Of a stretch of 51,068 nt of DNA, positions 7,432 to 38,700 are shown one piece after another. Under the pieces are notes generated by a model, which was not told the origin of the DNA, searched no databases, and saw only the letters and a list, made by a program, of their open reading frames with translations. Both the position numbers and the translations under genes were made by a program. The first letter of the stretch is position 1, and the number at the start of each line of letters is the position of its first letter. The stretch comes from Atribacterota bacterium (GTDB lineage: Bacteria > Atribacterota > Atribacteria > Atribacterales > Caldatribacteriaceae), in the NCBI GenBank assembly GCA_039638595.1, contig JBDIWM010000010.1:1-51068 (forward strand), given 5' to 3'.

Positions 7432-9288
7432 GTGAGGGAACAACACTACGAAGTTATTGTAATCGGTGGTGGTCATGCTGGCTGTGAAGCGGCATATGCC
7501 GCTTCACAGATGGGTCTTTCTACTCTTCTTGTAACTACTTCAATCCACCATATTGCCCTCATGCCATGTAATCCTGCTATTGGTGGTCCAGGAAAAGGCC
7601 ATGTGGTCAGGGAAATCGATGCTTTAGGAGGTCTTATGGGGAGGGTCACTGATCAATGCACCATTCACATTAAAAAAGTAAACACGGGTAAGGGCCCAGC
7701 AGTGCAAACTCTTCGAGCCCAGACACAAAGAGACCGTTATAGCCTTATCATGCGGGAGTTCCTCGAAGCAAGTTCTAATCTTTATTTCTTCCAGGGAGAG
7801 GTCGAAGAAATCTTCGTTAACCACGAAGGGAAAGTGTGCGGTATCCAAGTTCGGCAAGGAACAAAGTTTTTTGCTCAGGCTGTAGTCGTTTGCACCGGGA
7901 CATTCCTCAACGGTGTTGTTCATATTGGAGAGCTGCATTTCCCCGCTGGAAGACAGGGAGAATTTCCCACTCAGGCATTAAACCGGTGTTTAAAAAATCT
8001 GGGCTTAGAACTCGGCCGTCTCAACACTTGCACCCCACCGCGCATTGACCGTCGGACCGTCGATTTTACTCATCTCGAAGAACAGAAAAGTGATACCGAA
8101 CCACTCTGCTTTTCTTTTGATGGTGAACCACACATATACCAGGGGGCTTCGGTCTATATTACCCGTACTACCGCAAAAACCTGCGAAATCATCAAACAGA
8201 ATTTCCATCGTTCACCTCTCCTTTATTCCATCGCTGAAAGCTCACCAGTTCGGGAATGCCCATCGTTAGAAGACAAAGTATATCGATTCCCAGAACGAGA
8301 ACATCATCTCGTTTTTCTAGAGCCTGAAGGGAACACAACCAATGAAATTTATGCTCAAGGCATTTTTACTTCGCTTCCCGAAGAAGTCCAGTGGGAGATT
8401 GTTCGTTCTATTCCGGGATTAGAGAATGCCCACATTATGCGACCTGGATACGGCATCGAGTATGATTATCTTTTGCCCACCCAGCTCAAGGCGTCCTTGG
8501 AGTGTAAATCAATCGCTGGTCTTTTTTTTGCCGGACAAATCAACGGCACTTCTGGTTACGAAGAAGCAGCTGGCCAGGGGATTATCGCCGGCATCAACGC
8601 CGGTCTTTACGTCCAAGGAAAGCCGCCGCTTATTTTACGCCGTGACGAGAGTTACATCGGGGTTATGATCGATGATCTGGTTACCAAAGGAGTGGAAGAG
8701 CCGTACCGACTCCGCACCGGAAAGGTGGAATATCGCCTCGTTATCCGCCACAGCAATGCTCACCTACGTCTTTCTCGATATGGGTACGAAGTAGGAACCC
8801 TCACCTGGGAACGATACAAAAAGGTACAGCACGAACAAAATCTGATTGAGCAAGAAGTAAAACGCTTAGAAAATGTGGTGCTTCCTCCTCAAAGTAAACT
8901 CAACGCACTTCTTGCACAAAAAGGAACCACCCCAATCAGAGAACCGGTTCGAGCGTCCGTACTTCTCATGCGACCTCAAATTACTTACCATGATCTGGCT
9001 CCTTTCGATCCAGGAAGACCTTTTCTCCCACCTCAAGCGATCGAGGAAGTTGAGATCGAAATCAAATACCGTGGATACATTGAGAGACAGATTCGGCAAA
9101 TTGGGGAATTTCGCAAAATGGAAGAAAAGCAAATTCCACCCGACTTCGATTTTTCCAGGATTAAGGGTCTTTCTTCGGAAGCTCGGGAAAAACTCCAGAA
9201 GGTGAAACCCACTACCCTCGGTCAGGCTTCCCGCGTTGCAGGTGTAACCCCTGCCGATATCGTAGTTTTGAGTATTGTCTTAGACTGA
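7432..9288 (+). CDS. mnmG: tRNA uridine-5-carboxymethylaminomethyl modification enzyme MnmG (GidA)
   Basis: A 618-residue FAD enzyme that, with MnmE, installs cmnm5 at the wobble U34 of certain tRNAs. The Rossmann motif IGGGHAGCEAA is at residues 11-21. The family signatures are clear: CNPAIGGPGKGHVVREIDALGG in the N-terminal part and SGYEEAAGQGIIAGINA in the middle. The C-terminal helical domain that contacts MnmE is complete (GLSSEAREKLQKVKPTTLGQASRVAGVTP). The start is GTG at 7432 with AAAAAGGAGG upstream. mnmE is not in the window. Length matches the family. Confidence 0.96.
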   Translation: MREQHYEVIVIGGGHAGCEAAYAASQMGLSTLLVTTSIHHIALMPCNPAIGGPGKGHVVREIDALGGLMGRVTDQCTIHIKKVNTGKGPAVQTLRAQTQRDRYSLIMREFLEASSNLYFFQGEVEEIFVNHEGKVCGIQVRQGTKFFAQAVVVCTGTFLNGVVHIGELHFPAGRQGEFPTQALNRCLKNLGLELGRLNTCTPPRIDRRTVDFTHLEEQKSDTEPLCFSFDGEPHIYQGASVYITRTTAKTCEIIKQNFHRSPLLYSIAESSPVRECPSLEDKVYRFPEREHHLVFLEPEGNTTNEIYAQGIFTSLPEEVQWEIVRSIPGLENAHIMRPGYGIEYDYLLPTQLKASLECKSIAGLFFAGQINGTSGYEEAAGQGIIAGINAGLYVQGKPPLILRRDESYIGVMIDDLVTKGVEEPYRLRTGKVEYRLVIRHSNAHLRLSRYGYEVGTLTWERYKKVQHEQNLIEQEVKRLENVVLPPQSKLNALLAQKGTTPIREPVRASVLLMRPQITYHDLAPFDPGRPFLPPQAIEEVEIEIKYRGYIERQIRQIGEFRKMEEKQIPPDFDFSRIKGLSSEAREKLQKVKPTTLGQASRVAGVTPADIVVLSIVLD

Positions 9289-9593: not shown

Positions 9594-9639
9594 AATCTCT
9601 CTACCAGGTGCAAGAAATATTGCACCTGGTAGAGAGATT
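9594..9639 (-). terminator. Perfect 20-bp hairpin overlapping the glnA stop codon
   Basis: Bases 9594-9613 and 9620-9639 are exact inverted repeats around the 6-base loop GAAATA. The right arm runs into the glnA TAA stop (9638-9640). The minus-strand transcript would form a very stable stem at the end of the argC-glnA operon. No T-run follows directly; a T-rich stretch appears only some 10-18 bases later. The hairpin could also end or process mnmG transcripts arriving from the other strand. Confidence 0.85.
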
Positions 9640-34414: not shown

Positions 34415-34843
34415 ATGGGACATCAGGTCTCGGTTTTTGCCGAAAATAAACCGGGTCGACTCGAGAAAATCACCCGAGTACTGGCCCAGGAAGAGATCAA
34501 CATTCGGGCCATAACCATTTCCAGCGCCAATGGGTTTGGCGTCATCAAAATCCTGGTCGACAAACCTCAGAAAGCGTACGACGCATTGCGAGCTCAAGGA
34601 ATTCCCACCTATCTTCAGGAAGTAATCGCTGTAGTAATAGAAGACAAACCCGGAAGCCTCCACCAAATCGCTCAGATTCTCACCGAAAACGGGGTCAATA
34701 TCGAAGATGCGTATGGGTTTGTGGTCAAAAGCGGCGAAAAGGCGGTTCTCGTCATTCAGGTGGAAAATCAGCCCCGTGCCCAGAGCGTGCTGGAAAGAAA
34801 TGGTTTCGAACTCTTAAGTGATGAAGCGATTTACCAGTCTTAA
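34415..34843 (+). CDS. Tandem ACT-domain protein
   Basis: A 142-residue protein made of two ACT domains and little else. The first (residues 3-66) begins VSVFAENKPGRLEKITRVLAQEEINIRAITI; the second (70-140) begins VVIEDKPGSLHQIAQILTENGVNIEDAYGF. Both carry the PGxL ligand loop. ACT domains bind amino acids; this one probably senses an aromatic amino acid and acts on, or alongside, PaaK, but that is inferred from neighbourhood. AGGAGGAG precedes the ATG at 34415. Confidence 0.9.
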   Translation: MGHQVSVFAENKPGRLEKITRVLAQEEINIRAITISSANGFGVIKILVDKPQKAYDALRAQGIPTYLQEVIAVVIEDKPGSLHQIAQILTENGVNIEDAYGFVVKSGEKAVLVIQVENQPRAQSVLERNGFELLSDEAIYQS

Positions 34844-34866: not shown

Positions 34867-35340
34867 ATGAGTACACTCATCTGCTTTTTTTCGCAAACTG
34901 GCAAAACCAGGGCAGTAGCCGAAGGTATCGCCGAAGCATTGCAGGCGACCATCTCTGAAATTACGCTGACCTCGAAAGGAAAGGCAATCCGTCCCTTAGG
35001 GATAAAATGGACTGACCAGGACCTTCCAGAAATTTCATGCCCAGTCAAAGATTTAACCCCGTTTCAAGAAATTTTTCTGGGTGGACCGGTATGGGCTTTC
35101 AACGTCAGCCCGCCCGTAGTGAGTTTCATAAACCAGGCCTCATCCTGGAAAGGGAAAAAGGTGACACTTTTTGTCACTGAATTCGGCATGGCTGGCAGAA
35201 GAGCTCTCCGGACACTCCGCACTCTTCTTGAAAAAAAGGGTGCTCGGGTTGTAGCAGGCAAAATTTTCACTTCTCCTTTTAAGTCACCACAGCGTCTCAA
35301 AGAACAGGGAAAAAAGTGGGTCCGAAGTACCAAGAAATAG
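34867..35340 (+). CDS. Flavodoxin-like protein
   Basis: A 157-residue flavodoxin-fold protein. The FMN phosphate loop FFSQTGKTRAVAEGIAE is at residues 7-23; LGGPVWAFNVSPPVVSFI is the second FMN loop and VTLFVTEFGMAG the third. It carries electrons or acts as a small quinone/flavin reductase. ATG at 34867 follows AAGGAGGGA and lies 23 bases after the ACT gene. Its last four codons, including TAG, form half of a perfect 18-base inverted repeat shared with pckA. Confidence 0.88.
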   Translation: MSTLICFFSQTGKTRAVAEGIAEALQATISEITLTSKGKAIRPLGIKWTDQDLPEISCPVKDLTPFQEIFLGGPVWAFNVSPPVVSFINQASSWKGKKVTLFVTEFGMAGRRALRTLRTLLEKKGARVVAGKIFTSPFKSPQRLKEQGKKWVRSTKK

Positions 35341-35366
35341 CGGGAAACTTCCCGCTATTTCTTGGT
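35329..35366. terminator. Convergent hairpin containing both stop codons of flavodoxin and pckA genes
   Basis: Bases 35329-35346 and 35349-35366 are exact inverted repeats with a two-base centre. Each arm begins with ACCAAGAAATAG on its own coding strand, so both genes end with codons for Thr-Lys-Lys-stop. The stem forms in transcripts from either direction, suggesting a bidirectional terminator or 3'-end stabiliser. No T-run follows on either strand. Confidence 0.85.
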
Positions 35367-38675: not shown

Positions 38676-38700
38676 AGAGGGAGGAATGATTCCTCCCTCT
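38676..38700 (-). terminator. Hairpin after the second binding-protein gene
   Basis: Bases 38676-38686 and 38690-38700 are exact 11-base inverted repeats (AGAGGGAGGAA) around TGA. On the minus strand TTCTTTTT follows, so it may act as a leaky terminator that lowers permease and ATPase expression relative to the binding protein. Confidence 0.75.

Follow-up and report, generated by a model that had tools for sequence, protein, structure and literature searches.

A palindrome encoding the C-terminal ends of two convergent genes as a likely bidirectional terminator in an Atribacterota bacterium

Results and discussion

Why should a flavodoxin-like protein and a PEP carboxykinase, encoded by genes that face each other, end in the same amino acids? 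In an Atribacterota bacterium (GenBank assembly GCA_039638595.1, contig JBDIWM010000010.1), the final codons of both genes are ACC AAG AAA TAG (Thr-Lys-Lys-TAG) and lie within the two arms of a single inverted repeat. We analysed a stretch of 51,068 nucleotides of this contig, hereafter the window, together with related genomes. The features of the locus are as follows (window coordinates):

34415-34843, plus strand: ACT-domain gene, upstream of the flavodoxin-like gene
34867-35340, plus strand: flavodoxin-like gene (Pfam Flavodoxin_4), 157 aa, ending STKK-TAG
36911-35355, minus strand: pckA, ATP-type PEP carboxykinase (Pfam PEPCK_ATP, E 2e-217), 518 aa, ending LTKK-TAG
35329-35366, no strand assigned: perfect inverted repeat with arms 35329-35346 (ACCAAGAAATAGCGGGAA) and 35349-35366, 18 nt each, 100% complementary, with a 2-nt spacer, AC; proposed bidirectional intrinsic terminator, with both stop codons inside and paired changes in a same-genus relative
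35338-35340 and 35355-35357: stop codons of the flavodoxin-like gene and of pckA, respectively, separated by 14 bp
35338-35357, no strand assigned: core hairpin TAGCGGGAAACTTCCCGCTA, 8-bp stem and 4-nt loop, proposed to be used in both directions
35358-35363, plus strand: U-rich tract TTTCTT of the flavodoxin transcript, antisense of the pckA AAG AAA codons
35332-35337, minus strand: U-rich tract TTTCTT of the pckA transcript, antisense of the flavodoxin AAG AAA codons

The perfect 18-base repeat and the shared Thr-Lys-Lys-TAG ends described in the initial annotation are real, as the complementarity of the arms, the open reading frames and the Pfam assignments show, and both stop codons do lie inside the hairpin. 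A 101-nt region at this site folds at -42.5 kcal/mol, compared with a mean of -24.75 for shuffled sequences (z -5.2; none of 200 shuffles as good), and a random window of equal size is expected to contain approximately 1e-5 perfect repeats that have 18-nt or longer arms and a 0-12-nt spacer.

A candidate terminator working in both directions

Very likely, the palindrome acts as a single intrinsic (Rho-independent) terminator for both directions, and its A/T-rich outer arms double as the final sense codons of the two genes. This reading depends on how the stem is delimited. The initial annotation had stated that no U-tract follows the hairpin, which holds for the maximal stem alone and results from having taken the longest stem. 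When the stem is cut at the core, the next bases are TTTCTTGG on either strand; the TTTCTT sits in the outer arm, where it pairs with the A-rich Lys-Lys codons. In our own re-implementation of TransTermHP scoring (cut-offs -2 for the hairpin and -2.5 for the tail; PMC1852404), the hairpin scores -12.2 on both strands and the tails -4.24 (plus) and -4.29 (minus), so that the cut-offs are passed both ways. The authors of TransTermHP pointed out that, in bidirectional terminators, the A tail may pair with the T tail and resemble a lower stem (PMC1852404). The outer arm of the focal palindrome is such a tail-pairing lower stem, and it is coding too. Its U-tract is broken by one C (UUUCUU) and is weaker than the tracts found in relatives, and the TTTCTT is positionally homologous to a T6 run in a genome of the same genus.

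In the mechanism that we propose, the core hairpin (TAGCGGGA/TCCCGCTA), stop codon included, would form behind an RNA polymerase leaving the flavodoxin gene while UUUCUU is transcribed from a DNA template consisting of the pckA Lys-Lys codons, and transcription of pckA would involve the mirror-image process. The A-tract needed for two-way termination would be read as lysine codons on each strand, which would account for Lys-Lys at both protein ends. We infer that transcription terminates at the palindrome in vivo. Of the two roles first suggested for the structure, transcription end or mRNA protection, it is the former that best explains it; the same hairpin may in addition protect 3' ends. 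Arm identity may be maintained in part by template switching, with one arm copied onto the other.

The same gene pair in related genomes

In the only same-genus genome found (G001), flavodoxin and pckA are also convergent and their ends meet in the palindrome CAAAAAATAGCGGGGAA-CC-TTCCCCGCTATTTTTTG. The proteins end in SIKK and LAKK, respectively, and the last two codons are identical, AAA AAA TAG. Compared with the focal genome (G000), G001 carries a paired substitution, AAG/CTT to AAA/TTT, together with a paired insertion (an extra G-C pair); the arms are complementary over 17 bp, both TAG stops remain inside, and TTTTTT follows the core, with hairpin/tail scores of -14.5/-5.20 and -14.5/-5.01. 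Third codon positions of flavodoxin and pckA differ by 31-32% between the two genomes. Covariation at this locus thus amounts to one double substitution plus one paired insertion in two species, and these paired changes support the view that selection or homogenisation has preserved the structure. At the outer edge, the Thr codon is lost in G001 (Ile in flavodoxin, Ala in pckA) and its pairing is partly gone. Consequently, the earlier idea that the structure fixed the two C-termini survives in part: the palindrome makes them coincide, but Lys-Lys-stop alone is kept.

Outside the genus the arrangement changes. In two genomes from another family of the order (G014 and G016) the pair is convergent, with a different long hairpin in a spacer of approximately 64 nt and with proteins ending in KVNNH/KANNH and LSLE; the G014 hairpin fails the tail score. 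Other genera and families carry canonical hairpin-plus-T-run terminators downstream of pckA in a wider spacer, positionally equivalent to the focal hairpin, several of them scoring on both strands. In more distant relatives pckA mostly faces another gene and the C-termini differ; identical Thr-Lys-Lys ends without a facing partner were not found in our comparison of C-termini. The flavodoxins of G003, G005 and G011, three genomes in which we found no pckA match, face another gene and end in LKE, LRK and LKD, respectively, in the same alignment column, and relatives of pckA carry EVMKK near the C-terminal end. Lysine codons at both ends therefore probably existed before the palindrome.

The flavodoxin gene itself may be a variable component of this region. 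Its codon score (34867-35340) is weak beside those of its neighbours, and in several relatives a gene on the opposing strand bearing the C-terminal motif of the ACT-domain gene, judged by eye, appears to face pckA directly. Together, these observations suggest that the flavodoxin gene may have been inserted between the ACT-domain gene and pckA, or lost in other relatives.

A second locus with the same arrangement

A comparable palindrome joins a ferritin gene and a 4HBT thioesterase gene:

L066:786-814 (also L205, L206, L207, L208, L204, L129-L131 and L135): ferritin/thioesterase palindrome between convergent genes, both stop codons held

In the focal genome the two genes meet at TAGAAGACGGGGCC-T-GGCCCCGTCTTCTA, with a TAG stop forming each end of it. 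In g3, a different genus of this family (G005, G007 and G011), the palindrome includes both coding ends, ferritin finishing in GERKD-TGA and thioesterase in YRKRKD-TGA. The thioesterase-side YRKRKD-TGA end is likewise present in G009, and G003 has shorter arms and a YQKQKD end. In the g3 stem, 98.6% of cells are paired, and a paired change, AAA/TTT to AAG/CTT, synonymous in both genes, separates G005 from G007 and G011. Owing to the small number of sequences, shuffle support for covariation at this locus is weak (one double substitution; 44 of 500 shuffles score at least as high).

The ferritin also ends in ERKD in G010, which lacks a following hairpin of this type; the ferritin end was therefore not imposed by the hairpin. 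The thioesterase, by contrast, ends in YRK in the focal genome and in YRK-RKD in g3. On the simplest reading of these sequences, the ferritin end came first and the g3 thioesterase probably gained its tail by copying it. As an independent second case from another genus of the family, this locus strengthens the interpretation of the first. It also bears on the stronger version of the earlier claim, namely that the structure created both protein ends, which is unsupported given the Lys-containing flavodoxin and pckA ends in relatives and the palindrome-free ERKD ferritin. In G014 and G016 (L209 and L210), the loop of a terminator-like hairpin contains the TAA stop of the thioesterase gene (GGAGGGGG-AATAA-CCCCCTCC in G014), a different way for such a structure to incorporate a stop codon.

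Origin and function of the palindromes

Several other explanations can be considered for these structures. The one that survives best, although we regard it as rather unlikely, is that an ordinary terminator drifted into the gene ends and that the alike C-termini follow trivially from its symmetry. This addresses the origin of the overlap and is compatible with terminator function. Indeed, a stop codon inside one arm obliges the facing gene in that frame to end alike, and relatives of both proteins tolerate varied, often basic, ends. Against a chance placement stand the conservation of the arrangement in a second species via paired changes, its recurrence at a second gene pair, and its absence from samples of E. 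coli, G014 and G017, which are small (400 kb per genome).

In our survey, both stops fell in one perfect stem in 2 of 32 close convergent pairs (850 kb of the focal genome); the 400-kb samples of E. coli (31 pairs) and G014 (13 pairs) gave none. A scan for ORF symmetry gave a single hit in G003 (374 kb) and no hits in the samples of G002, G014, G017 and E. coli. These counts are small and come from genome samples, and an excess in the focal genome over E. coli and G014 is not established; moreover, genes were called with a simple home-made ORF caller able to miss genes such as flavodoxin. A third apparent double-end case (L057:10529-10566) was rejected, as its plus-strand ORF overlaps the real start of a permease gene and the hairpin lies between a substrate-binding protein gene and that permease. 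A strong hairpin occupies the same position, between an ABC substrate-binding protein gene and the downstream permease gene, at window 38676-38700, and such hairpins possibly set unequal expression inside the operon. In E. coli, inverted repeats directly after stop codons are common and arms of at least 8 bp are scarce upstream of the stop (PMC6060812), which makes an overlap with coding ends unusual, not unheard of.

A second alternative, which we find improbable, is that the hairpin chiefly protects mRNA 3' ends, or acts with Rho to block antisense read-through, without being the actual point of termination. The stem is long and very stable, rho is found in the genome and in nearly all relatives searched, and the focal U-tract is interrupted. 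A further difficulty for termination comes from translation, since a ribosome at the stop codon should impede hairpin folding: in E. coli, a ribosome reduces the efficiency of a terminator 5 bp after the stop from approximately 90% to <10% (PMC4824070). The core stem includes the stop codon, so strong transcription-translation coupling would block termination here. This leaves three possibilities: loose coupling at these genes, partial termination, or a hairpin that mainly serves transcripts that are not translated to the end. Median stop-to-apex distances (24.5 nt in 451 kb of the focal genome, 25 in 400 kb of E. coli, by one crude method) give no genome-wide hint of an uncoupling that would lift the ribosome problem; the corresponding stop-to-stem medians are 8.5 and 11 nt. 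Runaway transcription as a genome-wide trait was dropped for the same reason, stop-to-hairpin distances resembling those of E. coli with no general shift, and loss of rho as the cause of strong hairpins was dismissed with the finding of rho in the genome. What speaks for termination over protection is the U-rich tract on both strands, perfect in the same-genus relative, and the ordinary terminators that most relatives have downstream of pckA. Protection is, besides, compatible with a termination role.

We give an equally low probability to a mainly mutational palindrome, in which template switching copied one gene end and maintains arm identity, selected function being slight or absent. The arms are perfect across coding sequence at both loci, and the RKD of the g3 thioesterase matches the ferritin end found without a palindrome in G010. 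At the second locus, the spacers GTTT (G007) and AAAC (G011) are exact reverse complements between identical arms: in the compared stretch, 4 of 4 spacer bases differ and none of the 76 others, and ferritin third codon positions differ by 24% between these genomes. Template switching has been described as leaving two marks, homogenised arms and inverted spacers (PMC8604942), and the histories of RNA genes show patterns consistent with template switching making and maintaining hairpins (PMC8794818). The inverted spacers, read with these marks, support a template-switch origin at the second locus without proving it. The focal spacers (AC in the focal genome, CC in G001) show no inversion, so that template switching there is something we infer; a copying direction from flavodoxin to pckA is no longer favoured, since relatives of pckA carry EVMKK near their end. 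Nevertheless, a GC-rich core with T-rich flanks is the layout of a terminator, terminators of unrelated sequence are kept between like gene pairs in relatives, and selection for pairing would also yield homogenised arms. Template switching is a likely route of origin or upkeep, not a substitute for function.

Finally, a dispersed repeat at gene ends (REP/BIME-like, an uptake-signal pair or a miniature transposon) is extremely implausible: such elements typically form palindromes at gene ends, but the focal palindrome is single-copy in the 2.1-Mb genome, its core is unique even with up to 3 mismatches, other stop-proximal hairpins are unrelated in sequence, and an Rfam search gave no credible match (sole hit a miRNA family, 20.4 bits versus a gathering score of 77).

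Returning to the bidirectional terminator, we tentatively propose a history for it, possible if somewhat doubtful, in which template switching copied one 3' coding end, reverse-complemented, onto the facing gene and created a two-way terminator and a C-terminal tail at once. This would have taken place at at least two gene pairs in this Atribacteria family, with upkeep by repeated copying of the arms.

Comparison with known systems

Two-way intrinsic terminators are a known class; arms coding for both C-termini are new. The bidirectional terminators predicted by TransTermHP (PMC1852404) and that of Rickettsia prowazekii RP826-RP827 (PMC3027695) likewise combine a GC-rich hairpin with an A-rich left and a T-rich right flank, working on both strands between facing genes. 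In contrast with them, the focal tails and both stops lie inside both coding sequences, so that the arms encode two protein ends. The stem-loop in the 3' coding sequence of E. coli arfA, overlapping mscL (PMC10070815), is likewise a coding-sequence hairpin in a tail-to-tail pair. It lies in the coding end of one gene and the 3' UTR of the other, acting on arfA mRNA and as antisense RNA, and, unlike the focal palindrome, does not symmetrically encode both C-termini. Paired stem changes have also been described in Bacillus cereus intrinsic terminators (PMC5381666), bidirectional ones being considered; that study left out terminators inside a second gene, whereas the focal paired changes alter codons of two genes. 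Finally, template-switch repeats in yeast (PMC8604942), RNA hairpins (PMC8794818) and Nematomorpha mitochondrial genes (PMC6649704) resemble the present case in perfect coding palindromes, possible arm homogenisation and, at the second locus, spacer inversion, but occur within single genes or RNA genes, whereas the focal arms belong to two converging genes and to a proposed terminator.

If this reading is right, a regulatory RNA structure directly writes two protein ends, its A-tract supplying Lys or Arg codons on both strands, and terminator evolution, protein tail evolution and template-switch mutation are linked at one 40-bp site. Transcription-translation coupling could also be tested sharply at such a site, since a close ribosome should block a terminator with the stop codon in its stem.

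Two other perfect palindromes were observed in the window: a 20-bp inverted repeat at 9594-9639, whose stem starts 2 nt before the end of a minus-strand stop codon, and a 28-bp palindrome at 7482-7509, with 14-bp arms and zero spacer, within a called gene of 1944 bp.
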